A stretch of DNA of 44,145 nt, taken from a virus. Under the pieces are notes generated by a model. The model saw nothing but the letters and a program-made list of their open reading frames with translations. It had not been told where the DNA came from and ran no database searches. The DNA lies in IMG/VR virus record IMGVR_UViG_3300046167_000686, positions 1-44,145 of that record; one strand, written 5' to 3'. The position numbers and the translations under genes were made by a program. Each line of letters opens with the position of its first letter. Position 1 is the stretch's first letter. Positions 1 through 44,145 of the stretch are shown piece by piece.

Positions 1-418
1 TACGTATATGGGCCGAGCGCAAATCCCCCCATCGGCCAACGCTGCCATCAGCCAAATTTTCGACCAATTTACCGTCAAAATTACCGTTTCGATGCGCGAT
101 AATCATATAAATAAGGGGCAGGGGGGTACATTCAACAGTTATCACAACTGTTACCAGCAAGAATCAGGCGCATTCCGAGCCGTTGCGCCCGCTTTCTTTT
201 GCCTCTCTTTCTCTCCTCTAGTCGTTTTGCAAATCGCCACAATCACATCGCAATCACTATTGACGCGATACTCATAGCCTGCATTGTTTATAAATGCATA
301 ACCAAAATTAGTCACTCATTTATTACGCTCGTCACCCTTGATTTCACATTCACTAGTCGACTTAAGTTGTAATGGCACGGGGTCACTTCCGACGCCGCCA
401 ACAGAAGGAAATCTCAAC
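1..418. other. Non-coding left-end leader
   Basis: No reading frame here is kept between the two copies, so I see no gene. The first 90 bases carry short repeated words (TTACCGT twice near 68-88), then a 19-bp palindrome, then AT-rich sequence. The last 75 bases before the first gene contain a conserved block with TTGATT and GGCACGGGGTCACTTCC present in both copies. This is where host RNA polymerase promoters for the early genes are expected in a T7-like phage. I cannot assign a convincing -35/-10 pair. Confidence 0.6.
134..152. promoter_or_regulatory. Conserved 19-bp palindrome, candidate operator
   Basis: AACAGTTATCACAACTGTT is a perfect 7-bp inverted repeat around ATCAC. It is conserved base for base at 40901-40919, although the flanks have diverged. 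The symmetry and position upstream of the early genes suit a dimeric repressor or a host regulator site; which protein binds is unknown. Confidence 0.45.
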
Positions 419-757
419 ATGGGCTACCACAAACAAGCCGCCCTCGCCGCAGATGACCTGAACTGGTTCTTAGAGTCCGCCCGGGCTGGCACCATCGACG
501 AATACTACTGGTCACTCGAAGGCACACCTACGAGCCGCATGATGGCCATCGACACTAGAGGTACACTCGAAGAGCAAGAAGGTCTTCTTTATCGCTTGAG
601 CAATGTAGCAGTCTTCGTACCGGACCACATCTTCGGCATGACACAACCAATCGTTGAGCAGCTGCGTTACAAACGAGCAACGCCAGCAGCTATCTTGCCA
701 TTCCCTGCCGATGATGAACCCACAGGTTATCACGGCCTCAACATGTCCGACCTTTAG
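419..757 (+). CDS. Early protein of unknown function, 112 aa
   Basis: Hypothetical protein of 112 residues; I do not recognise a family. The ATG follows AGAAGGAAA at normal spacing. The same start is used by the second copy at 41174, whose protein has the same length and differs at about 12 positions, which supports real coding and this start. The protein is soluble-looking, acidic, has no membrane segment, and contains an aromatic-rich N-terminal part (DLNWFLES, EYYWSLEG). It is the first gene of the early cassette, where T7-like phages keep small host-takeover proteins, so a host-modifying role is possible but only inferred. Confidence 0.85.
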   Translation: MGYHKQAALAADDLNWFLESARAGTIDEYYWSLEGTPTSRMMAIDTRGTLEEQEGLLYRLSNVAVFVPDHIFGMTQPIVEQLRYKRATPAAILPFPADDEPTGYHGLNMSDL

Positions 758-833
758 TTCGTCGTCACGGTTTCACTATTGATTGAAAGCCGCTGGCAAC
801 GACATCTGCAAACATCTTTTGAGGAGAACTCTA

Positions 834-1013
834 ATGCGTAAAGAAATCACAAAGGGCCAATACACGGCCAAAATCGACGCCAACAACTTCGTCATGCTGG
901 TTCACAACGATGGGAGCCAACATGGCCGCGTCGTGAATTACCCAGCACCGAAGACCTATGCAAACCGCAAAACTGCTGAGCGTGGCGCTAAAGCCATGCT
1001 GGCCAAAGTTTAA
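834..1013 (+). CDS. Early protein of unknown function, 59 aa
   Basis: Hypothetical protein of 59 residues. GAGGAG lies just upstream of the ATG. The open frame extends further upstream, but the second copy (41575) aligns only from this ATG, so this start is preferred. The two copies differ at just two residues near the N-terminus, making this the most conserved early protein in the window. It is basic at its C-terminus (NRKTAERGAKAML), has no cysteine and no membrane segment. Strong conservation against a diverging background suggests a constrained function; none can be named. Confidence 0.85.
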   Translation: MRKEITKGQYTAKIDANNFVMLVHNDGSQHGRVVNYPAPKTYANRKTAERGAKAMLAKV

Positions 1014-1030
1014 TCTTGAAGGGAAATCCA

Positions 1031-1225
1031 ATGACAATCATGACAACTCGCCTCGCCAACCTGGAAGAAGGCACCATGTTCCGCACTTCGGCCAAGTCAC
1101 AATTCTACTATGTGGATGGCTACGACCGCTTATCGCGGCGCTATCACATCACGGCTGCCAACGGCGACATCTGCCAAATGCGCCCGAAGATGAAAGTCTA
1201 CACCTTAGATGAAGCCTCGTACTGA
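1031..1225 (+). CDS. Early protein of unknown function, 64 aa
   Basis: Hypothetical protein of 64 residues. The ATG follows GAAGGGAAA and matches the start of the second copy at 41772; the proteins differ at about eight positions. The core has alternating aromatic and charged residues (YDRLSRRYHIT) that look like a small beta-rich domain, but no family is recognised. It sits 17 bases after the preceding small gene, so the two are probably co-transcribed. A conserved hairpin follows the stop codon. Confidence 0.85.
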   Translation: MTIMTTRLANLEEGTMFRTSAKSQFYYVDGYDRLSRRYHITAANGDICQMRPKMKVYTLDEASY

Positions 1226-1235
1226 ACTGCCCTGA

Positions 1236-1280
1236 CCTATCGGTGTCCAGCAGTGTGCGCCCCTGCTGGCATCCCATAGG
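1236..1280 (+). other. Conserved long RNA hairpin between early genes
   Basis: CCTAT, GGTG and CCAGCAG on the left pair with CTGCTGG, CATC and ATAGG on the right, with a one-base bulge and a small internal loop. In the second copy (41977-42021) the stems are kept, one base change gives a G-U pair, and the apical loop is altered. No T-run follows, so it is not a standard terminator. An RNase III processing site, as in T7 early mRNA, or an RNA switch are possible readings. Confidence 0.6.
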
Positions 1281-1322
1281 CCACGAAGACCTATGAATTT
1301 GGAAACTTTCACAGGAAATTAC

Positions 1323-1718
1323 ATGGAAACTTTACGAGACAGGGCAACAGCCCTTTTGAACGACGAAATGGGCGCTTTTTATGTGTCCAAATCGCAAGCC
1401 ACGCCGGAGCTACCCTCTGGCGCTTACATAACTGACGATGACCCGTGGACAACAGGGCGGATGCTCCATTGCCTAGCAAACATCAACACAGCCGAATTGA
1501 GCGACTACGCGGCATTGGTTGAAGTGTCGGACTTAACTCAAGAGTTCATGTTCGATGCCTACGAACAGGATGGCGATAACGGTTATAATGCGGTCATGGA
1601 ACATGCAGAACGCCTTGGCGTTTTCAGCAAAGAAGCTGGCTGGGTGCATGAGACCCCTAAAGGCCGCACTGTCCTTAGTGAACTCTTTTGGGAGGGTCTG
1701 ACTATTGAACCCAGTTGA
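1323..1718 (+). CDS. Early protein of unknown function, 131 aa
   Basis: Hypothetical acidic protein of 131 residues. An in-frame ATG exists 30 bases upstream, but the start here has AGGA at good spacing and corresponds to the start of the second copy (42064). The two copies are strongly diverged at the N-terminus and C-terminus. They share a central core with YITDDDPWT or YVQDDTPWT, then VSD, then DGDNGYNAV or DGDNGYDAI and ERLGVF. This pattern suggests one conserved domain with fast-changing ends, as seen in phage proteins that meet variable host targets. No family is recognised. Confidence 0.8.
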   Translation: METLRDRATALLNDEMGAFYVSKSQATPELPSGAYITDDDPWTTGRMLHCLANINTAELSDYAALVEVSDLTQEFMFDAYEQDGDNGYNAVMEHAERLGVFSKEAGWVHETPKGRTVLSELFWEGLTIEPS

Positions 1719-1866
1719 AGCAATGGAAATGGATGACCTTCTGTATGATTTAGAGGGCATGGCTGATTATCTGCGCGCGGTTTACTACGAGCATGAGGTC
1801 GCAGATGACATGGATAAAGCGTGCAATACCATCGCTGCTCTAATCAAGAGGCTCAAAGCGGCATGA
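1705..1866 (+). CDS. Small acidic early protein, 53 aa, TTG start
   Basis: Small hypothetical protein. I chose a TTG start because GGAGG lies nine bases upstream and because the second copy uses an ATG at the matching codon (42471). An internal ATG a few codons later is the alternative. The sequence (MDDLLYDLEGMADYLR) is acidic and helical, with a lysine-rich end. It overlaps the end of the preceding gene and shares ATGA with the next one, so the three genes look translationally coupled. Function unknown. Confidence 0.7.
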   Translation: MNPVEAMEMDDLLYDLEGMADYLRAVYYEHEVADDMDKACNTIAALIKRLKAA

Positions 1867-2393
1867 TTGATTCGGTTTCAGCACCCAAAATGGCACCATA
1901 TGTTGTTAACAAGACGTTAACAAAACCATATATAGTACATTTTGTGCATGTTTTGTCGGTAACTTTACATCGCAAAGCAATGAAATCCGAATTTTATTAT
2001 CGTTTAAAAACAATGGTGGCGACCGTGAACAGGTCGTCAACCCCATTTATTTCATTTGCATTTAACGGTTTTAGGTTCATCCCCTTTTTCCGCCAAGCTA
2101 TAGTCTTGCCAGCACTACCAAATTCAACTGGTCAGACACCAAAAGCACCCATTCGTGGGAACGGGAAAGGTTTGTCTGGCGCATATAAAAGGACGCTGGC
2201 AATGCGTAGCAGACTATTGAAGGCAACTACTGGCATTAAAGAAATCGACATCTTTGTTCAAAAAGAACACGGGCGGATGCCCACAGTTTTGGACATTCAG
2301 CGACACCAACCCCGCCAATGTGAAAGCGGCATGGTAACAGATTATGAGTTGCGTTATCTGCGCACCGTGATATATGCTTCAATAGTGAAGTGA
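1863..2393 (+). CDS. Early protein of unknown function, 176 aa, upstream part uncertain
   Basis: Open frame of 176 residues starting at an ATG overlapping the previous stop. The second copy (42629) is also open throughout and its net length difference is a whole codon, which argues for coding. The conserved part is the C-terminal 90 residues, from TGQTPKAPIRGNGKG to YLRTVIYAS, with a basic stretch (AYKRTLAMRS) and a DIFVQKEHGRMPT segment. The N-terminal half is AT-rich and poorly conserved, and contains a hairpin at 2017-2039. A shorter protein starting at the TTG or ATG codon of LSGAYKR or MSGAYKR is possible. It lies between early and integration genes; no function is recognised. Confidence 0.6.
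   Translation: MIDSVSAPKMAPYVVNKTLTKPYIVHFVHVLSVTLHRKAMKSEFYYRLKTMVATVNRSSTPFISFAFNGFRFIPFFRQAIVLPALPNSTGQTPKAPIRGNGKGLSGAYKRTLAMRSRLLKATTGIKEIDIFVQKEHGRMPTVLDIQRHQPRQCESGMVTDYELRYLRTVIYASIVK
2017..2039 (+). other. Hairpin with T-rich downstream sequence
   Basis: GGCGACC and GGTCGTC pair around a seven-base loop, with one G-U pair. In the second copy (42783-42805) the stem is a perfect GACGACC/GGTCGTC and is followed by TTTTTCTTTGTTTTT, so there it looks like an intrinsic terminator. It lies inside an open reading frame, so either the frame is not translated this far upstream or the hairpin is a coincidence of coding sequence. Confidence 0.4.
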
Positions 2394-2405
2394 AATCAAA
2401 AATGA

Positions 2406-3689
2406 TTGGACCTTGATTTGGACCAGAAACAGACCATTGCGTTTAACGGCTTGAATTATGTCGCTGCTTTTAGAGGTGCATTCTCGGAAGCAAGCGTCAA
2501 AGAGCGTGTGTCTATTGAACATATGGAAACCTTTTTCTTCATGATGACTGCTCATAATCAAGATGGTGTTGAACTTCGGCGACTACAAAAAGCCCTTGGA
2601 TACGCACAGGCTAAGATGCATCGCACCGCTGCCGTTCTGGAAACTTTGGGTTGGATTGTAACTCGGGATTCAGCCGTAGATGCACGACAAAAAGAAGTGT
2701 TTCTCACCGATAAAGGCCATGCATTCTTTGATAAGATTGCAAACTCACTGTCCGAAAACGGGAATGACAGCATCTTTGTTAAGCGCAGTGAAGACATGCG
2801 TGACATCATTGAAGAAGATAAAGCAATTCGCGACATGCGCGTTGTTCAATTACAGAGCGGCAAACCCAGCGTGGATGCCACAGTGTTGGTGGAAGGTGTC
2901 GCAGCTAAAGGTGAAGCTGGAAGGGGCAAGACACAAGCCGAGCATTCAGCAGAAATACATGATGCTTATCAGCGAGCAAAAATAGACGAGCAACTTCAAA
3001 AAGACGCGGCATTAGCAAAGGCAAAGGCACGGCACGACAAGCACCGCGCTCGGCTTCGTGATGCCATAGCGGTTCTTGAAGATGGTCCAATTGAGGTTGG
3101 TGCTAACTATGTGAAAACCAGCCGTGGCATTGTCACATTTGCTGTACTTTTAAGACGCATCAACGATTACGACCCTACACTCAAAGCGCGGTCTATTGCT
3201 CAAATTGGCCTGACAATCGCTACAATGAGTGAGCAGGATTACGCTAAATTAATGACCCCAAGCCCGAAGACTAAACTTAAACGCTTGGAAGTAGAGTTGC
3301 TCGATTTGAAGCATAGGATAGAGGCTACAGAACGCCTAGGTGGGCATGACGGGCCAGCCCATATTCAAGCAGAGATGAACCGACTGGCACAGCGTTGGCA
3401 CGCAACAAAATATGAACTTCAGGCTCTCGAAGCTAAAGAACGCTACCAAGATATGATGTCTGATACCGATGAAGACGGTAATGACTTTGTGCTAGGGCAA
3501 AATGGTACGGAAATGGCCGATGGAAGCTGGGTCTATACAACACAAGGCGAATACACCGAAGAGCAAGCACAGATTGATGATGCGGATGAAGAACACAACC
3601 CTGCTTTACAGCGTATATTCTCACGCGCTATCGAACGTAATGAGCGCGCAAAAAGTTCCACAACTGATGAAGATGGTAGCGAGGCGTGA
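2406..3689 (+). CDS. Winged-helix (MarR-like) protein with long coiled-coil tail, 427 aa
   Basis: Likely DNA-binding regulator; not a named gene. Residues about 35-115 read as a MarR-type winged helix: HMETFFFMMTAHN, then LRRLQKALGYAQAKMHRTAAVLETLGWI as the recognition region, then an ARQKEVFLTDKG wing. From about 175 onward the protein is charged and helical with coiled-coil character, interrupted by a well-conserved segment (GPIEVGANYVKTSRGIVTF), and ends in an acidic tail. Start TTG is the first possible codon and has no clear ribosome site, so an internal start is possible. The gene abuts the first integrase, overlapping by a base, which suggests a role in lysogeny control. The second copy (43169) has an extra insertion of roughly 20-25 residues near 43620-43690. 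Confidence 0.65.
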   Translation: MDLDLDQKQTIAFNGLNYVAAFRGAFSEASVKERVSIEHMETFFFMMTAHNQDGVELRRLQKALGYAQAKMHRTAAVLETLGWIVTRDSAVDARQKEVFLTDKGHAFFDKIANSLSENGNDSIFVKRSEDMRDIIEEDKAIRDMRVVQLQSGKPSVDATVLVEGVAAKGEAGRGKTQAEHSAEIHDAYQRAKIDEQLQKDAALAKAKARHDKHRARLRDAIAVLEDGPIEVGANYVKTSRGIVTFAVLLRRINDYDPTLKARSIAQIGLTIATMSEQDYAKLMTPSPKTKLKRLEVELLDLKHRIEATERLGGHDGPAHIQAEMNRLAQRWHATKYELQALEAKERYQDMMSDTDEDGNDFVLGQNGTEMADGSWVYTTQGEYTEEQAQIDDADEEHNPALQRIFSRAIERNERAKSSTTDEDGSEA

Positions 3690-5910: not shown

Positions 5911-6086
5911 TATTACCGTCAGTTCGCTAAGAAATCGTGAATTTAATAAAAGATTTTGCACCTCTGGCAACAGTTAGTGGGCACCTCGTCGCAGTCCTGA
6001 CTAATTGAAACCGCCTCAAAAGTAAATACATTGGACTGGTGGGACACCCCTGCCCTGCATTTGCGCCAACAACCTAAAGGATACGC

Positions 6087-8549
6087 ATGACAGATTTATA
6101 TACCATCCAAGAAGCCATCGAAAAAAAGTCACGAGCCACAACGATTGAAAAATTCAACAGTGAGCTTGCAAAAAAGCAGACGAAGCATGAAGAGACGGCA
6201 ACTTACTACGGCTCACCACTTTTTAAACGGGCTATTGAGCCTGTTGCAACACTGGTGGCACAGAAAGTTGCTGCTGCAAAAAAAGGACGAGCAGGCAACG
6301 CGAACATTGCGGTGAAATATATTTCCCTGCTCAAGCCTGAGCATGTTGCTTACCATACCGCTAAAGTCATCGTTGATCGGCTCATGTTTAACAAATCGAT
6401 CCAAGACACAGCTATCGGAATAGCGACCAGTCTTGAGGATGAACTGCGATACATCTCGTTCGACAACCAGCATCCACATTTATTCAAAAAAATTGTGAAT
6501 GAAACCGCCACTAATGGTCAACGCCGTCGGCAAACAATCCTCGCAGCTTACAATCGCTACTGTGAAACGTGGGTGTCTTGGTCAAAAACTGACAAAGTGC
6601 ATCTTGGTATGGCGCTCATCTCTCTGTTCATCGAAGCAACAGATTTTGTCTCTCAACATTACCTTGCACGTGGCAAGAACAAGACAGACATAGTGCTGAG
6701 GCCAACACAAAAGGTGCTGGATTTTATTGAGCAGAACCGAGAGTTCGCCAGCCTGCTAAATCCAGTTCATTTACCGATGGTTGTGCCTCCACGCGATTGG
6801 ACATCGCCAACCGAAGGTGGCTACCTCACGCCTTATTCGCCTCAAATGCCCTTAATCAAGGTGCGTAACAATCCGCAAAGCCGAAACTATTTTGACGATT
6901 TGAGCAGTCTTACCAACAGCATGGATACCGTTTACCACTCCGTCAACGTGCTTCAAAAGACAGCGTGGCGCATCAATCCATTTGTCTTGGACGTGTTTAA
7001 GGAGATCCATCGTTTGGGATTACCTGTCGCCACCTTGCCGAGCGTCGAAGACATACCGCCATCCCATCACCTTTGAGCAAAAACCAAAAGACAAACGAGT
7101 TGAACGAACAGCAAAAGGAGCAATTCAAAGCGTGGAAGCGCAAAGAGGTAGAGCGCCATGATGCAAATTTTGCCATGCAGTCAAAGCGACTCATGGTCGG
7201 CACAATCGCCAGAATTGCCAAGAATATGCACAATATGATGCCATCTATTTTCCACACATCATGGATTTTAGAGGGCGTCTCTACCCTGCCCCGATGTTTT
7301 TAAACCCACAAGGCAACAAGCTGGCCAAGGGTCTGCTTGAATTTGCAGAAGGCAAAGCCATTGGCTCTAACGAAGCCGCGTTTGAATTGGCGTACACGGG
7401 GCAAACTGTTTTGGCTACGACAAAGGCACAATGGACGAGCGAATTGATTGGGTTGAGGAGAACACCGACAGAATATTGCAGGTAGCTGCTGACCCAATGG
7501 CAGACCTGTGGTGGGCCAAAGGAAGCCGATAGTCCATGGTGCTTCCTTGCATTTGCAAAAGAATGGGAAGGCTTTCAGCGCGACGGCTACAGCCACGTCA
7601 GCCATATCCCAATTGCAAAGACGGAAGCTGTTCTGGCTTGCAGCACTTTTCGGCCGCTTGCGTGACCCAGTGGGCGCAATGGCAACCAATCTTCTGCCCT
7701 CAGAACAGCCTGAAGACATTTATCAACGGGTAATCGATCCACTAAAGATAAGGTCGCGCTAGATTTAACGGTGACAAAGCGAGCCTTGCACAAGCTTGTC
7801 TAGATTATGGGCTGTCACGAAAAGCCGCCAAACGTAGCACAATGACAAGGGTCTACGGCTCGACCTTATATTCGCTCACGCTCGTTTGTGGGAATATTTC
7901 AAGAAACTGATGCACAGCGCAAACAAGAAGACCCAATTATGTCAGCCCATTACACGGACATGAGTTTCAAGCATCGTTGTACCTAGCCAAGCATATCTGG
8001 GACAGCATCAACGAGACAGTAATTGCAGCAAAAGAGGGGATGGATTGGCTTCAAAGCTGCGCACGATTGCTAGCAGATGAAGGTTCACCGACAAGTTGGA
8101 CAACCTTGGATGGGTTTCCTGTCCTGCAGTATTACCCCAACACTACACGCAACCGCATCAAAACTAAGTTAGGAGACAAAAAGGTCTACGTCAGCTTGCG
8201 TACCAGACTGGCGGACATCGACAGAAAAAACAATCGAACAGCATCAGCCCAAACTGGGTTCACGCGAACGATGCTTGCCACCTACGGATGACAGTCAATC
8301 TCGCAGCGGCCAACGGAGTTTCTAGCTTTGCGATGATACACGACAGCTTTGGGTCTCATGCTGCAGACATTCCGATGTTGAGTGCTTGCCTGCGCGAGAC
8401 TTTCATTGAGCTATACCTCGACAACGACCCACTCGAAATGTTTCTAAACCAAGCACAGATACTGACCAATGCTGAGTTGCCCGAGCTTCCTGCAAAAGGG
8501 CACTTTGGACATATCTGCAGTTCGCAAGTCGGAATTTTTCTTTGCGTAA
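6087..8549 (+). CDS. Single-subunit DNA-directed RNA polymerase, T7 gp1 family (multiply frameshifted)
   Basis: T7-type RNA polymerase of about 820 residues that transcribes the phage middle and late genes. The ATG follows AAAGGATA. Conserved parts appear in order: the N-terminal domain, MDFRGRLYP, LNPQGNKLAKGLL, KDGSCSGLQHFSA (carrying the D537 equivalent), KRSTMTRVYGS (K631 and Y639 equivalents), DGFPVLQYY, MIHDSFGSHA (D812 equivalent) and the terminal FFFA after PAKGTLD, like the FAFA end of T7. At least six frame changes occur (near 7070, 7235, 7450-7510, 7660, 7740-7880, 7960, 8280, 8510). All catalytic residues survive in the right order, so I favour sequence error over decay. Length is slightly below T7 gp1 (883). 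Confidence 0.93.
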
Positions 8550-8571
8550 TGCATTTACTTTTGATGAGAAA

Positions 8572-8594
8572 TCAAAGGTTGCACCATAGCTATA
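8572..8594 (+). promoter_or_regulatory. Candidate phage RNA polymerase promoter, middle genes
   Basis: TCAAAGGTTGCACCATAG matches the copy at 40329 at 17 of 18 positions, and a shorter TTGCAC version lies at 18111. Aligned to the T7 promoter, the shared CAC-N-ATAG falls exactly at the CACTATAG initiation box. It lies directly after the polymerase gene, where T7-like phages place class II promoters. Confidence 0.65.
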
Positions 8595-10523: not shown

Positions 10524-12146
10524 CGAAAGCGAATACCTCCGCAAAGAACCGTGTCCATCCTGTGGGTCATCTGACGCCAGAGCCATCTACAGCGATGGAC
10601 ACACCTATTGTTTCTCCTGCACCACCCGCACACGCGGCGATGGCGAGGAGCCTTCAAGAAGTGGACCTCGAATGCCGCAAGACCTAATACCGTTTGGGGA
10701 AGCCCAAGCGTTGCCTAAGCGTGGCATTACCGATGAGACCTGCCGCAAGTTTGGCTACACCATTGGTGAACACCACGGCGAACCAGTACAGATTCGCAAC
10801 CTATCGTGATGCAACTGGCGCACCCGTCGCCCAGAAACTGCGCTTCAAAGACAAGCAATTCAAATTCATCGGCGATACGAAAAAGGCTGGCCTTTATGGG
10901 CAACACCTTTGGCGTAACGAGGGTGGTAAAATGTTGGTTATTACGGAGGGCGAGGTTGATGCACTGAGCATGAGCCAAGTCCAAGGTAACCGTTTCCCTG
11001 TTGTGAGCGTTGGAACAGGTGCAGCAGGCGCAAAGAAGGCTGTCGCTAACTCACTAGAGTTTGTCGAAAGTTTTGACCGTGTTGTTATCATGTTCGACAA
11101 CGACGAGGCTGGCCGCACGGCAAGCCAAGAAGTCGCAGCAATGCTGTCAGTAGGTAAGGCGGCTATCGCCACCCTGCCCCTCAAAGACGCCAATGAAATG
11201 CTCATGGCTGGCAAAGGCGCAGACCTTATCTCGGCAATGTGGGACGCAAAAATCTATCGTCCTGATGGCATCATCGATGGTCAGAACATGTGGGAAACCA
11301 TCATGGCTGACGATGATGCTGAGAGCATCGACTATCCGTTTCGATGGTTTGAACCAGAAAACATTAGGGATGCGGCGCGGCGAACTGGTCACAATAACGG
11401 CTGGCTCTGGCGTGGGGAAATCCCAAGTCTGCCGCGAGATTGCCTACGAACTACTGAACCGTGGCGAGAGCATTGGCTATATTGCGCTTGAAGAAAACAC
11501 CAAGCGCACAGCTTTGGGCCTGATGGGCCTATCACTGGAAAAGCCGTTGCATCTATCCAAGGAAGGCATCTCTGAGGCGGTCATGCGTACCGCATTTGAT
11601 GAGACTGTCGGCAGTGGACGGGTGTTTCTTTACGACCACTTCGGTTCACTGGCCACAGACAACCTGCTGAACCGTGTTCGTTACTTGGCCAAGGCTTGCA
11701 ATGTTGGTTGGGTCATCCTCGACCACCTAAGTATCGTGGTCTCGGGCGTTGATAACGGCGATGAACGCAAGGCAATCGATGTCATCATGACTAAGCTGCG
11801 TTCGCTCTGCGAAGAAACGGGCATTGGCCTCATCCTCGTATCCCACCTCAAGCGCCCCAGTGGTGACAAGGGATGGGAGAATGGCCTCGAAACCAACCTC
11901 AATTCCCTGCGTGGTAGTGCGGCCATCGCCCAGCTGAGTGACATCTGCTTGGGCGTCGAGCGTGACCAGCAAAGCGACAACCCAAATGTCTCAACAATCC
12001 GTGTACTCAAGAACCGCTTCACGGGTGAAACAGGTGTGGGCTGCTTCGTTCATTACAACAAAGAAACAGGTCGCATGGTCGAAGTCGAAGACCCAACAGT
12101 CTTTGCCGATGAGACAAACGACGGAGAAGTCACAGAAGACTTTTAA
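10498..12146 (+). CDS. DNA primase-helicase, T7 gp4-like (two frameshifts)
   Basis: Bifunctional replication protein of about 549 residues (T7 gp4 is 566). The N-terminal zinc-binding motif has CPSCGS and CFSC pairs. The TOPRIM primase core shows EGEVDALSM and MFDNDEAGR. After a linker, the RecA-like hexameric helicase has Walker A GSGVGKS, EENTKRT, a Walker B strand VILDHLSIV and LVSHLKRP. The end is acidic with terminal DF, as in T7 gp4, where this tail contacts the polymerase. Frameshifts near 10800 and 11375 split primase from helicase in the raw frames, but every motif is intact. The ATG lies inside the preceding small gene. Confidence 0.92.
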
Positions 12147-18081: not shown

Positions 18082-18112
18082 ACTTGTCCTTTAATTAGGG
18101 CAAGTTTTGTTT
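18082..18112 (+). terminator. Intrinsic terminator after nrdJ
   Basis: ACTTGTCCT pairs with AGGGCAAGT around TTAATT (one G-U pair) and runs into TTTTGTTTG. It separates the replication and nucleotide block from the virion block. Confidence 0.8.
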
Positions 18113-18127
18113 GTTGCACTAAAGAGG
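18111..18127 (+). promoter_or_regulatory. Candidate phage RNA polymerase promoter, virion genes
   Basis: TTGTTGCACTAAAGAGG shares TTGCAC and AGAG with the stronger candidate at 40329. It lies right after the nrdJ terminator and just before the virion operon, where a phage promoter is expected. The match is weaker than between the other two candidates. Confidence 0.45.
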
Positions 18128-18134
18128 ATAACAA

Positions 18135-18314
18135 ATGTTTCCATATACTTCCGAAGAACTCTTAAACGAACTCGACGAACGCTTCCCTGAGAAATCACCT
18201 ACATTAGATGAAACCTATGAAACCCTAATGTGGCGTGGCGGTCAGCGTTCCGTGATTCAGTTTTTAAGACAACAATTCGAAGACCAATCCAAACGACAAT
18301 TAACAGGAGAATAG
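18135..18314 (+). CDS. Small hypothetical protein, 59 aa
   Basis: First gene of the virion block. ATG with AGAGGATA upstream gives 59 residues, acidic and helical (SEELLNELDERFPEK, then SVIQFLRQQFEDQ). It is soluble, without cysteines. In T7 the corresponding position holds small accessory genes (6.5-7.3) of mixed or unknown function. No family recognised. Confidence 0.75.
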   Translation: MFPYTSEELLNELDERFPEKSPTLDETYETLMWRGGQRSVIQFLRQQFEDQSKRQLTGE

Positions 18315-38551: not shown

Positions 38552-40278
38552 TGTTTAAAGCAACAACCTCGCTTGGCATCCCCATAGCGAATGACCCGCT
38601 TTCAGATTTCAGAAAGTTTCCTCTTCGTTATCTGGAAGCACCTCAACCTCCCCGACCCTACCCCAGTTCAATATGACATCGCCTACAACCTACAGCATGG
38701 CGACAAGCGAATGATTATCGAAGCATTCCGAGGCGTTGGTAAGTCATGGGTCACATCAGCCTACGTGGTCTGGCTTCTGTACATGAACCCACAGCTAAAC
38801 ATCTTGGTCGTTTCAGCGTCTAAATCTCGCTCAGACGACTTTCACTACGTTTACCTTGCGGCTCATTAACGAGATTGAAGTATTGGCCCACCTGCGGCCA
38901 AAGCCTGACCAAAGACAGTCCAAGATTAGCTTTGATGTAGCACCTGCTGCTGCGTCTCACGCACCCTCAGTGAAATCTGTGGGTATATCAGGCCAATTGG
39001 CTGGCTCTCGTGCAGATGTAATCGTCGCAGATGACATCGAAGTACCGAACAACTCTATGACACAGGGAATGCGGGATAAACTGTCAGAGGCTGTGAAGGA
39101 ATTTGACGCTATTCTTAAACCAGATGGGCGTATCATCTACCTTGGGACACCACAGAACCAAGAGAGCTTTGTATAACAAACTGCCTGACCGTGGATATAA
39201 GGTCAGTATCTGGCCAGCTAGGTATCCAAATCCAGAGCAGATGGTGGGATATGGTAGTAAATTAGCACCGCTCATCAGTAATGCATTGGCTGTCGACGCT
39301 ACCATTGTCGGTGAACCTACAGACCCAAACCGCTTCTCAGATTTTGACTTGTTGGAGCGAGAAGCAAGCTACGGTCGCAGCGGCTTCGCACTACAGTTTA
39401 TGCTCGATACGAGACTCTCTGATGCGGAAAGATACCCCCTCAAGGTGTCTGACCTAATCATCATGGATATACCCACTCAGGAAGCCCCTGAGAAGGTCTC
39501 ATGGTCATCTGACAACCAGTATATTGTGGAAGAATTACCGAACGTAGCGTTCAACGGTGACCACTATCACAAGCCTATGTTTATGAGTTCTGAGTTCGTC
39601 GAATATACAGGCTCAGTCATGAGTATTGACCCCTCAGGACGCGGTAAGGATGAAACTGGGTATGCAGTCGTAAAGATGCTCAATGGCTACCTATACGTCC
39701 GTAGATGCGGTGGCATTGCAGGCGGATACTCAGAGGAAGCACTCCAGAAACTTGCAGTCATCGCAAAGGAAGAACAGGTCAATGAAATTATTGTTGAGTC
39801 AAATTTTGGTGATGGGATGTTTAACCAGTTGTTTATGCCTGTGCTGAACAAAGTCCATCCTGTCACAATGAGCGAGGTCCGTCACAATACGCAGAAGGAA
39901 CGCCGTATCATCGATGTTCTTGAGCCTGTGATGAACCAACATCGTCTCGTGGTGGACAAGAAGGTCATCCAGAAGGACTTTGATAGCTGTCAGCACCTGC
40001 CCCCTGAGCAGGCTCTACGTTACCAGTTGATGTATCAGCTAACCCGTCTGACAGCCGACAGAGGCGCATTGACTAACGATGACCGCTTAGATGCTCTGGC
40101 TATGGCTTGTCAGTATTGGGTTGATGCAATGGCTCAGGATGTCGAGCAGCGTATGGGTGTGCGAAAAGAAGAGCTGATGGCAGCTGAAATAAATAGACTG
40201 CGTGAGCAGGCTTCTATGGGTTTCGCTGTGATTACGGGTCACCAGAGTGAGAAGACCAATCAAGGTCTGCGCTGGTGA
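38551..40278 (+). CDS. Terminase large subunit, T7 gp19-like (frameshifted)
   Basis: DNA-packaging ATPase and nuclease of about 575 residues (T7 gp19 is 586). Walker A is EAFRGVGKS, Walker B is DVIVADDIE, and the coupling motif is YLGTPQ. The nuclease domain shows [25 protein letters not shown] and [11 protein letters not shown], giving the three acidic metal ligands. Frame changes lie near 38627, 38848 and 39165. ATG overlaps the previous stop. It cuts concatemers at the genome ends, which should lie in the following non-coding region. Confidence 0.94.
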
Positions 40279-40328: not shown

Positions 40329-40351
40329 TCAAAGGTTGCACAATAGAGAGG
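40329..40351 (+). promoter_or_regulatory. Candidate phage RNA polymerase promoter at the right end
   Basis: TCAAAGGTTGCACAATAG followed by AGAGG. Laid base for base on the 23-bp T7 promoter, it matches in the initiation half (CAC, ATAG, GAG) and differs in the specificity loop region, as expected for a related polymerase of different specificity. The position after the terminase matches the T7 right-end promoter, which is linked to replication and packaging. Confidence 0.7.
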
Positions 40352-40514: not shown

Positions 40515-40550
40515 CTGGCGGCCTGCTTATCGGTTGCCAGCGTTTTTTTT
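40515..40550 (+). terminator. Terminator-like hairpin with T8 run
   Basis: CTGGC pairs with GCCAG across a 16-base loop and is followed by CG and then TTTTTTTT. It would stop rightward late transcription where it meets the convergent minus-strand gene, whose stop codon lies in the loop. Confidence 0.5.
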
Positions 40551-40765: not shown

Positions 40766-41173
40766 TACGTATATGGGCCGAGCGCAAATCCCCCCATCGG
40801 CCAACGCTGCCATCAGCCAAATTTTCGACCAATTTACCGTCAAAATTACCGTTTCCGATACGCGATAATCATATAAACATGGGGCATGGGGGTCATATTT
40901 AACAGTTATCACAACTGTTACCAGCAAGAATCAGGTGCATTTTGAGCCATTGGCGGCTTTCTTTTGCCTCTCTTTTTATTCTCTATCGTTTTGCAAATCA
41001 CCATAATCATATCCAATCACTATTGATACGATACTCATAATTCATTGTTTATAAGTAATAACCAATATTAGTTACTCATTAAATGCGCATCACCCTTGAT
41101 TTCACCTCACAAGTGACTTAGGTGTAATGGCACGGGGTCACTTCCGACGTCGCCAACAAAAGGAAACGCACAC
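40766..41173. other. Non-coding leader of the second early region
   Basis: About 400 bases with no supported gene. They begin with the near-identical 89-base block, followed by the conserved palindrome and an AT-rich part diverged from the left copy by substitutions and indels. TTGATT and GGCACGGGGTCACTTCC are again present before the first gene. A 10-bp palindrome TATACGTATA straddles the start of the block. Confidence 0.6.
40901..40919. promoter_or_regulatory. Second copy of the 19-bp palindrome
   Basis: AACAGTTATCACAACTGTT, identical to 134-152. Here one more flanking T-A pair extends the symmetry. Conservation against changed flanks supports a protein-binding site. Confidence 0.45.
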
Positions 41174-41512
41174 ATGGGCTATCATAAACAAGCCGCAATC
41201 GCCGCAGATGACCTAAACTGGTTCTTAGAATCCGCACGGGCTGGCACCATCGACGAATACTACTGGTCACTCGAAGGCACACCCACAAGCCGCATGATGG
41301 CCATCGATACACGCGGTACACTCGAAGAGCATGGTGGCCTTGTCTATCGCTTCGAGGATGTAGCAGTCTTCGTACCTGACCACATCTTTGGCATAGTACA
41401 GCCAATCGTTGAGCAGCTGCCTTACAAACGAGCAACGCCAGCAGCAGTCCTGCCCTTCCCTGCCACTGATGAACCGACAGGCTATCACGGCCTCAACATG
41501 TCCGACCTTTAG
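41174..41512 (+). CDS. Early protein of unknown function, 112 aa, second copy
   Basis: Homologue of the protein at 419, same length, about 100 of 112 residues identical by my count. Differences cluster in the middle (EEHGGLVYRFEDVA versus EEQEGLLYRLSNVA). AAAAGGAAA precedes the ATG. The same start in both copies supports the gene model. Function unknown. Confidence 0.85.
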   Translation: MGYHKQAAIAADDLNWFLESARAGTIDEYYWSLEGTPTSRMMAIDTRGTLEEHGGLVYRFEDVAVFVPDHIFGIVQPIVEQLPYKRATPAAVLPFPATDEPTGYHGLNMSDL

Positions 41513-41574
41513 TCGGCCCCAATACAATCACTTTTGACCGGAAATCAAAGGTCATAACTTTAAGGAGAACTTCG

Positions 41575-41754
41575 ATGACTAAGACAATCACCAAAGGCCA
41601 ATACACCGCCAAAATCGATGCAAACAACTTTGTAATGCTGGTTCACAACGATGGGAGCCAACACGGCCGAGTTGTGAACTATCCAGCACCAAAGACATAT
41701 GCAAACCGCAAAACAGCAGAGCGTGGCGCTAAAGCCATGCTGGCCAAAGTTTAA
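41575..41754 (+). CDS. Early protein of unknown function, 59 aa, second copy
   Basis: Homologue of the protein at 834 with only two changes (MTKTITKG versus MRKEITKG). AAGGAG precedes the ATG. TCAAAGGTCATAACTTTAAGG just upstream partly resembles the phage promoter motif but lacks the CAC-ATAG box, so I do not call it a promoter. Confidence 0.85.
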   Translation: MTKTITKGQYTAKIDANNFVMLVHNDGSQHGRVVNYPAPKTYANRKTAERGAKAMLAKV

Positions 41755-41771
41755 TTTCGAAAGGAAACACA

Positions 41772-41966
41772 ATGACAATCATGACAACTCGCCTCGCCAA
41801 CCTTGAAGAAGGCACCAAGTTCCGCACTTCGCGCAACTCAGCTTTTTACTTCGTGGACGGCTATGACCGCTTATCGCGGCGCTATCACATCACGGCTTCC
41901 AACGGCGACATCTGCCAAATGCGGCCGAAGATGAAAGTCTATGTCCACGACGAAGCCTCATACTGA
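41772..41966 (+). CDS. Early protein of unknown function, 64 aa, second copy
   Basis: Homologue of the protein at 1031, same length, about eight substitutions (for example FRTSRNSAFYFVDGY versus FRTSAKSQFYYVDGY). GAAAGGAAA precedes the ATG. Followed by the conserved hairpin, as in the left copy. Confidence 0.85.
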   Translation: MTIMTTRLANLEEGTKFRTSRNSAFYFVDGYDRLSRRYHITASNGDICQMRPKMKVYVHDEASY

Positions 41967-41976
41967 CCTGCCCTGA

Positions 41977-42021
41977 CCTATCGGTGTCCAGCAGCTTGCG
42001 CCTCTGCTGGCATCCCATGGG
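41977..42021 (+). other. Second copy of the long conserved RNA hairpin
   Basis: Same stems as at 1236-1280: CCTAT/ATGGG, GGTG/CATC and CCAGCAG/CTGCTGG. The outer stem carries a change that still pairs (U-G), and the loop is CTTGCGCCT instead of TGTGCGCCC. The pattern, stem kept and loop free, is what a functional RNA structure would show. Confidence 0.6.
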
Positions 42022-42063
42022 CCATGAAGACCTATGATAACGGAAACTGTAATAGGATTTAAA

Positions 42064-42474
42064 ATGACGGCATTAACATTAGTGACAAACGAAAACGGGG
42101 CGAAAGCCCAACCAACAAACTCTGGGCCTGCAATCTATGTTTCGCCAAAGGATGCGACCCAAGAAATACCTGCTGGCTTTTATGTGCAGGACGATACACC
42201 GTGGACCATAAAGCAAATGGTTTACTGTCTGCAGCGCATCCCCAAGACCGATTTGAACGACTATGAAACCATGGTTGATGTCTCCGATATGGCTGAAGAG
42301 TTTTGTTTTGATGCTTTAAGGTCGGATGGTGACAATGGCTACGACGCCATCATCAATGAAGCGGAGCGCCTCGGTGTATTCACCGAAGATGGCTGGGTTC
42401 ATAACACTGCAAAAGGCCAAGCCACACTCCTGCGCATGTATAACGAGGCGCAAGATGGGACGACACGCTCATGA
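42064..42474 (+). CDS. Early protein of unknown function, 136 aa, second copy
   Basis: Homologue of the protein at 1323. The N-terminal 25 residues and the C-terminus are almost unrelated to the left copy, while the core (YVSPKDATQEIPAGFYVQDD, VDVSDMAEEFCFDAL, DGDNGYDAI) is conserved. AGGATTTAAA precedes the ATG. The stop overlaps the next start (ATGA). Confidence 0.8.
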   Translation: MTALTLVTNENGAKAQPTNSGPAIYVSPKDATQEIPAGFYVQDDTPWTIKQMVYCLQRIPKTDLNDYETMVDVSDMAEEFCFDALRSDGDNGYDAIINEAERLGVFTEDGWVHNTAKGQATLLRMYNEAQDGTTRS

Positions 42475-42632
42475 ACGCTGCAGAGGAGATGGAAATGGAT
42501 GACCTGCTCTACGATATGGAGGGCATGGCTGATTATTTGCGTGATGTTTATCACGAGCATGAGGTCGCAGATGACATGGATAAGGCGTGCAATACCATCG
42601 CTGTCTTAATCAAGAGGCTCAAAGCGGCATGA
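42471..42632 (+). CDS. Small acidic early protein, 53 aa, second copy
   Basis: Homologue of the protein at 1705; here the start is an ATG (MNAAEEMEMDDLLYDMEGMA), which supports the TTG start in the left copy. The remainder is nearly identical. It overlaps both neighbours by four bases. Confidence 0.75.
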   Translation: MNAAEEMEMDDLLYDMEGMADYLRDVYHEHEVADDMDKACNTIAVLIKRLKAA

Positions 42633-43156
42633 TTGATTCGGTTTTAGCATCCAAATTGGCACCATATATTGTAAATCGTACCTTACAAAAGCAAGATATA
42701 GTATGTTTTACGTATGTTTTGTGTATGCCCAATTGTGTCAAAGCCAAAAAATCGAAAAATAATTATCGTTTAAAAACAATGCTGACGACCGCAAACAGGT
42801 CGTCAAGCAATTTTTCTTTGTTTTTGCCTACATATAGTAGGTTCATCCCTTCTTTCCCGTCAGATATAGTCTTTCCAGCACTACAAAAATTAACTGGTCA
42901 GACACCAAAAGCACCCATTCGTGGGAACGGGAAAGGTATGTCTGGCGCATATAAAAGGACGCTGGCAATGCGTGGACTATTGAAGGCAGCACTTCGTGCA
43001 AAAGACATCGACATTTTTGTTCAAAAAGAACACGGGCGGATGCCCACAGTTTTGGACATTCAACGGCACCCACCCCGCCAATGTGAGGGCGGCATAGTAA
43101 CAGATTATGAGTTGCGTTACCTGCGCACCGTGATATATGCTTCAGTAGTGAAGTGA
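42629..43156 (+). CDS. Early protein of unknown function, 175 aa, second copy
   Basis: Homologue of the protein at 1863. The C-terminal 90 residues are conserved (TGQTPKAPIRGNGKG, DIFVQKEHGRMPTVLDIQRH, YLRTVIYAS). The N-terminal half is AT-rich and weakly conserved, though the frame stays open. Here an ATG starts the conserved part (MSGAYKR), immediately after GGGAAAGGT, so a shorter product is possible. Confidence 0.6.
   Translation: MIDSVLASKLAPYIVNRTLQKQDIVCFTYVLCMPNCVKAKKSKNNYRLKTMLTTANRSSSNFSLFLPTYSRFIPSFPSDIVFPALQKLTGQTPKAPIRGNGKGMSGAYKRTLAMRGLLKAALRAKDIDIFVQKEHGRMPTVLDIQRHPPRQCEGGIVTDYELRYLRTVIYASVVK
42783..42805 (+). terminator. Hairpin followed by T-runs, second copy
   Basis: GACGACC pairs perfectly with GGTCGTC around GCAAACA, extended by a T-A pair, then AAGCAATTTTTCTTTGTTTTT. 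It looks like an intrinsic terminator although it lies within an open frame. The left counterpart is at 2017. Confidence 0.4.
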
Positions 43157-43168
43157 AATCAAAAATGA

Positions 43169-44145
43169 TTGGACCTTGATTTGGACCATAAACAGACCAT
43201 TGCGTTTAACGGCTTGAACTATGTCGCTGCTTTTAGAGGTGCATTCTCGGAAGCAAACGTAAAAGAGCGTGTGTCTATCGAACATATGGAGACCTTTTTT
43301 CTTCATCATGACGGCGCACAATCAGGACAGCCTTGAGCTGCGGCGGCTACAAAAAGCCCTTGGTTACGCACAAGCTAAGATGCACCGTACCGCTTCCGTA
43401 CTGGAAACCTTGGGTTGGATTAAAACTAAGGATTCAGCCGCTGATGCACGGCAGAAAGATGTGTTTCTTACGGATAAAGGTCATGCATTCTTTGATAAAA
43501 TTACAAACTCACTGTCTGAGAAACAAAACGACAGCATCTTTGTTAAACGCAGTGAAGACATGCGTGACGTCATTGAAGAAGACAAAGCAATCCGTGATAT
43601 GCGTGTTATCGAATTACCTAAAACGGACCCAGAAGCACTGAAAAGACTTCAAATGCTTACCGAACAAATCAAGAGTGCTACGCCCAGTATGGACGCTACA
43701 GTGATGGTGGAAGGTGTCGAAGCGAAAGGTGAAGTTGGTCGAGCAAAGACACAAGCAGAGCACAGTGCGGAAATACACGATGCTTATCAGCGAGCAAAAA
43801 TAAACGAACAAATCCAAAAAGATGCGGCGATAGCAAAGGCGCGGCAGGACAAGCATAAAGCACAGCTCCGAGATGCAATTAGTGTTCTTGAAGATGGTCC
43901 AATCGAGGTGGGTGCTAACTATGTGAAAACCAGCCGTGGCATTGTCACCTTTGCTGTACTGTTAAGACGCATCAACGCTTATGACCCTACGCTTAAGGCG
44001 CGGTCTATTAGTCAAATTGGCCTCACAATCGCTACTATGAGTGAAGAAGACTACGACGATTTGATGACCCCTAGTCCAAAGACCAAGGTTGCACGTTTAG
44101 AAGCAGAGTTAAGTACGTTGAGTAACCGGATAGAGGCCACAGAAA
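43169..44145 (+). CDS. Winged-helix coiled-coil protein, second copy (partial, frameshifted)
   Basis: Homologue of the protein at 2406, cut by the window end. An extra T in the run near 43298-43304 shifts the frame after MET compared with the left copy, where the run is shorter. Past that point the reading continues in another frame with the winged-helix segment and the charged helical tail. Near 43620-43690 it has an insertion (PKTDPEALKRLQMLTEQIKS) absent from the left copy. GPIEVGANYVKTSRGIVTF is identical in both. Confidence 0.7.

Follow-up and report, generated by a model that had tools for sequence, protein, structure and literature searches.

Among the closest described systems, phage T7 reportedly requires 15 promoters genome-wide, compared with three to five in the phage group treated here, and two promoters, with the sequence ATTGGGCACCCGTAA, have been reported for the cyanophage Syn5 (PMC3950665). 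Like the phages of the present group, Syn5 is marine and T7-like and has very few promoters, but its promoter sequence is a different one and its RNA polymerase (RNAP) is only 25–29% identical to those of the group. The temperate-type T7-like phage LUZ100 (PMC10134795) has a MarR-like gene, an integrase and, immediately 5′ of the RNAP gene, a phage promoter, as do several relatives of the phage under study. It differs in having eight promoters, which were mapped experimentally, and a recognisable pre-RNAP site, which the window lacks at the aligned place (about 5915–5950).

The window, i.e. the whole 44,145-nt stretch of DNA that was analysed, belongs to the Autographiviridae (roseophage group near CRP-125), with a single RNAP gene, T7-like replication genes and the portal, tail tube and terminase gene order. 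The isolated phages closest to it are the Roseobacter phages CRP-125, -361, -114, -227, -113 and -171. Promoters are not mentioned in the paper on the roseophage isolates (PMC11092137), and in the forms searched the motif was not found printed in the open-access papers covered. Very probably, the phage's own T7-type single-subunit RNAP uses the sites as promoters, and these belong to a family, apparently undescribed but of an ordinary kind, that is found in T7-like phages of the ocean. With them, a widespread group of marine T7-like phages would gain the promoter map it has lacked.

Motif copies and neighbouring signals in the window

Two exact copies of TCAAAGGTTGCACNATAG were located on the + strand of the window, at 8572 and 40329, where the initial annotation had placed them. 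With up to three mismatches allowed, 0.10 matches were expected in the window against the two found, and no shuffled sequence contained two. The putative middle promoter (8572–8589, +, covering −17 to +1 in T7 numbering; TCAAAGGTTGCACCATAG, predicted start G8589) is situated 22 nt past the RNAP stop, the RNAP reading ending in EFFFA* at 8547–8549. The putative right-end promoter (40329–40346, +, −17 to +1; TCAAAGGTTGCACAATAG, predicted start G40346) follows by 50 nt the end of the terminase large subunit ORF, the C-terminal part of which was identified at 39103–40278 (+; phrog_38/15524, PF22530).

A third site, described initially as a weaker relative at 18111, is indeed a weaker copy with its core beginning at 18112, but it is more than that, namely a conserved putative late promoter (18107–18124 as the T7-style −17 to +1 box, +; TTGTTTGTTGCACTAAAG, predicted start G18124). 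It is located 3′ of the ribonucleotide reductase gene and 5′ of a small ORF and the portal gene (portal start 18628), ahead of the portal-containing virion block. On the window alone the site is non-significant (three core matches at ≤1 mismatch against 0.99 expected, with 7% of the shuffles reaching three), and only its retention at the corresponding position in relatives makes it convincing. The presence of just two strong copies and of a third within chance might suggest that an 18-mer was simply repeated at random; the count of two against 0.10 and the fixed-place conservation in many relatives refute this, and its probability is practically nil.

The earlier placement of the three sites after the polymerase, before the virion block and at the right end agrees with the positions of the RNAP, portal and terminase genes. 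Neither the window nor the six complete isolate genomes contained a copy before the capsid gene, in line with what had been noted.

The T7-type single-subunit RNAP gene (6087–8549, +; phrog_414 and PF00940 matches) is frameshifted in this record. The window thus encodes the enzyme in fragments, and it was argued from the intact 823-amino-acid polymerase of L003/L004 and from other relatives, in which the gene is intact with its catalytic residues (D537, K631, Y639 and D812 kept; 35% identity to T7 RNAP; PDB hit 1aro, E-value 7e-128). The window readings of the RNAP, primase, DNA polymerase and integrase all change frame, those of the relatives being intact, and the frameshifts are likely sequencing or assembly indels. 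Moreover, the left arm is present twice, at positions 1–3332 and 40766–44145, in copies that are about 80% identical to each other, of which the first 90 bases are identical and each of which is 81–84% identical to L004. The record probably contains many errors and is over-extended or chimeric. Its promoter sites lie outside the duplicated left-arm part and were confirmed in independent records. An AlphaFold model of the L004 RNAP built from seven sequences was set aside at a mean pLDDT of 49. In L005 and L006, a sequence like a tRNA 3′-end (reverse complement) was observed just upstream of the RNAP gene, which may represent a phage attachment site.

Other signals are merged with the promoters. 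An intrinsic-terminator-like hairpin (18082–18113, +; stems 18082–18089 with 18098–18105; RNA fold −15.6 kcal/mol, z −5.1) has a T-run that overlaps positions −17 to −11, i.e. the AT-rich half, of the late site, and it is kept in relatives with changed stems. The ribosome-binding sequence AGAGGA with its ATG (18123–18137, +; ATG at 18135) starts from the +1 region and would leave a very short late leader; AGGAT follows +1 in nearly all pre-portal sites of the relatives. Terminator hairpin, promoter and ribosome-binding sequence are hence packed in about 45 bp ahead of the late genes (18082–18124). At the right end, a terminator-like hairpin followed by T8 (40515–40540, +; −14.9 kcal/mol, z −3.6) is situated about 170 nt after the predicted start. 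No clear gene was observed between this promoter and the hairpin at 40515, and a short right-end RNA is possible.

We infer recognition by the window phage's RNAP, initiation at the final G and an order of expression. The host RNAP would transcribe the left genes, the RNAP gene among them, and the phage RNAP would then initiate after its own gene to transcribe the middle and replication genes. It would initiate a second time before the portal gene, where a single promoter, closely preceded by a terminator, might serve the virion block of roughly 20 kb, and a third time past the terminase, at the right end.

Conservation in relatives

Relatives were collected via RNAP, portal and terminase similarity. 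In the six complete genomes of isolated roseophages, the core GTTGC(A/C)C(C/T)WWAG gave 26 matches on the coding strand and none on the opposite strand. All 26 predicted starts fall between annotated genes, where intergenic DNA accounts for only about 6% of these genomes. The sites occupy five fixed position classes (before RNAP, after RNAP, after lysozyme, before portal, after terminase), and 134 distinct sites were counted over these classes. Three promoters were counted in the 41.6-kb relative G011 and four to five in the isolates, terminal variants included, which bears out the suggestion that such a phage uses very few.

The post-RNAP site is found at the same place in the relatives, 25–26 nt past the aligned RNAP end, and the post-terminase site likewise in L004/L136, L137, L138, G011/L142, L143–L148 and the CRP isolates. 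The late site is identical or near-identical in L056, L057, L084, L107, G003 and G011, with an equivalent in most portal relatives. In L003/L004, a promoter-like site GATTAGGTTGCAGTATAG also precedes the RNAP gene (L004 8622–8639). Relatives with the same polymerase, absence from which was to count against the motif, thus do carry it.

The element could instead be the binding site of another regulator, such as a MarR-like, replication or packaging protein, with no promoter function. A gene for a MarR-like protein is present upstream, LUZ100 has been proposed to have a MarR operator next to one of its phage promoters (PMC10134795), and the post-RNAP copy overlaps an inverted repeat, ACTTTTGAT-GAGAA-ATCAAAGGT (8557–8579, +; fold −7.7 kcal/mol, z −4.5), the right arm of which equals promoter positions −18 to −10. 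However, this repeat is limited to the post-RNAP class, the other classes having the motif without it, and the conserved part of the motif matches the start box of the T7, SP6 and K11 promoters, with one site per operon on the coding strand; a regulator site is therefore very unlikely. As a conserved RNA structure the repeat is a lead only: the pairing energies of its own arms beat most of those obtained with arms swapped between promoter types, and pair counting and formal covariation were not significant (209 of 500 shuffles).

Host sigma-70-type promoters, or parts of them, were considered in view of a TATAAT that follows the 8572 copy in the window and in L004. There is no −35 box at the usual spacing, and the hexamer is absent from the remaining sites within the same genome and, in L011–L013 and the CRP isolates, from the post-RNAP position as well, which makes this explanation exceedingly improbable. 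The reading as promoters for the phage's own RNAP is favoured also by scans of IMG/VR in which loci were chosen by motif only. With the TCAAA form TCAAAGGTTGCACNWWAG, 13 of 37 loci adjoin a T7-like RNAP or terminase gene in the expected orientation, those beside RNAP being typically 25–26 nt past its end. With the ATTAGG form ATTAGGTTGCACYWWAG, whose loci were likewise chosen by motif, 69 of 88 sites among the matches listed adjoin the expected T7-like genes, and a reversed-motif control gave none of 22 in sense orientation beside T7-like genes.

Eleven ATTAGG matches outside T7-like phages were rejected as chance: they share one common sequence, within an open reading frame of 88–229 codons, and look coding. 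A position-weight matrix trained on the isolates only was dropped as evidence, its −17 to −13 part being too narrow and its null poorly behaved; with it, the window sites scored no better than expected at random (best null p about 0.2), because their −17 to −13 differs. A prophage search of bacterial genomes, by RNAP and by motif, returned nothing.

Copies in an unrelated phage lineage

The remaining 24 TCAAA loci were without T7-like genes. Seven of them (L189, L196, L198, L199, L202, L208 and L221) belong to one unrelated marine lineage, with genes for a Holliday-resolvase/VRR-type endonuclease, dATP/dGTP pyrophosphohydrolase, family-A DNA polymerase, exonuclease and SNF2-type helicase. The promoter is the only DNA similarity of this lineage to the window and L004, and it amounts to 26 bases identical with L004 (TTTCAAAGGTTGCACCATAGCTATAA, −19 to +7). 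Exact copies of the 26 bp were identified before the replication operon in L196 (6271–6296), L202 (46–71), L208 (5191–5216) and L221 (4353–4378). The site is located 3′ of a GC-rich hairpin and 19 nt before the first replication gene, and in L360, L362, L368 and L371 the same hairpin and gene start are found without the insert. L359 has T for G at −12 and L189 has T for C at −4, and each of these changes is also found among the sites of the T7-like family.

A search for PF00940 RNAPs detected the L004 enzyme, included as positive control, but none in the promoter-bearing contigs, which are only 4–13 kb, or in 13 relatives, including the 41,886-bp G025. With contigs of this size, the promoter-bearing members may have an RNAP elsewhere in their genomes. 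Tentatively, the promoter could be a portable cassette between unrelated phages, through which a co-resident T7-like phage might, by means of its RNAP, activate the replication genes, although on the sequence comparisons at hand we hold this to be somewhat doubtful. If the copy is functional, the replication of one phage would be wired to the polymerase of another.

The other 17 TCAAA matches, outside both T7-like gene context and this lineage, are probably mostly chance. In L218, a 45-kb record in which no T7-type RNAP was detected, TCAAAGGTTGCACTATAG was observed between the small and large terminase genes (10652–10669, −).

Putative recognition block, polymerase loop and comparison with known promoters

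In T7 numbering, the family sites consist of an AT-rich variable part at −17 to −13, a recognition block (G/A/T)GTTGCAC at −12 to −5, C or T at −4, and a melting and start box WWAG ending at +1; the invariance of −11 to −5 across the 134 sites is partly built in, as the search pattern fixes those columns. The start box CAC-N-WWAG (−7 to +1) is thus set within an asymmetric element of about 18 bp, which is repeated on the coding strand, between genes and at operon starts. Start box, layout over 18 bp, position in the genome and presence of a T7-type RNAP together assign the sites to the T7-class promoters, and the initial annotation of a T7-class motif at T7-like positions is upheld by start box, strand, intergenic placement and relatives alike.

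The upstream half had also been regarded as a new specificity half, which does not hold. The TCAAA at −17 to −13 varies when GTTGCAC is constant, and the new element comprises two base pairs, not a half. Within a single record (G009), TCAAA was found after RNAP, AATTA before RNAP, and a T-rich CGTTA/TTGTTA type before portal, and TCAAA in one phage stands against TTGAT at the same place in another, with RNAPs 86–89% identical. Positions −17 to −13 seem to be an AT-rich stretch that is read with little stringency.

In T7 RNAP, N748 contacts −10/−11, R756 contacts −9 and Q758 contacts −8 (PMC5937735). The specificity loop of the family RNAPs has an invariant Lys748, as in K11 (Arg in SP6), and an invariant Tyr758 (Gln in T7, Ser in SP6), position 756 being variable. 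A fit of these loop residues to GG at −12/−11 and TG at −9/−8 is plausible, as a correlation drawn from the sequences of few lineages.

The promoters used for comparison were taken directly from reference genomes. The family has GGTTG at −12 to −8, in place of the type-specific bases of T7 (CGACT), T3 (ACCCT) and K11 (GGGCA). In the pelagiphage HTVC019P (L184), checked as a sister group, the roseophage-family motif was not found; a different repeated motif, TTACACTWTTAG, was observed at 341, 7348, 17075 and 31037, after RNAP and before portal genes, and is a candidate for the sister-group promoter.

The T7 promoter TAATACGACTCACTATAG has the start box and the −17 to +1 layout in common with the family, and T7 phi1.1A is situated directly after the RNAP gene, like the post-RNAP site here. 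As the initial overlay on T7 had indicated, CAC-N-ATAG coincides; the window site matches the T7 consensus at 11 of 18 positions, and loop residues 748, 756 and 758 differ. The K11 promoter (Klebsiella phage K11 phi1.05, AATTAGGGCACACTATAG) agrees with the best family members at 15 of 18 positions, and both polymerases have Lys748, but K11 has GCA at −10 to −8 where the family has TTG, and the RNAPs are 34–37% identical.

The closest match is to the promoter of Salmonella phage SP6 (NC_004831), AATTAGGTGACACTATAG, with which the family form AATTAGGTTGCACTATAG (L247 and L262, after terminase) agrees at 16 of 18 positions, although the polymerases are only 29–33% identical. In place of the SP6-type GGTGACAC at −12 to −5, the family has GGTTGCAC, with TG instead of GA at −9/−8 in every member. 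In commoner family forms such as AATTAGGTTGCACTATAG the differences are confined to these two positions, and the window copies differ also at −17 to −14 and −4. The family would hence offer a candidate RNAP/promoter pair, in which recognition differs from that of SP6 at essentially two base pairs, matching the loop changes, and which could serve as a clean test of how such enzymes read −9/−8.
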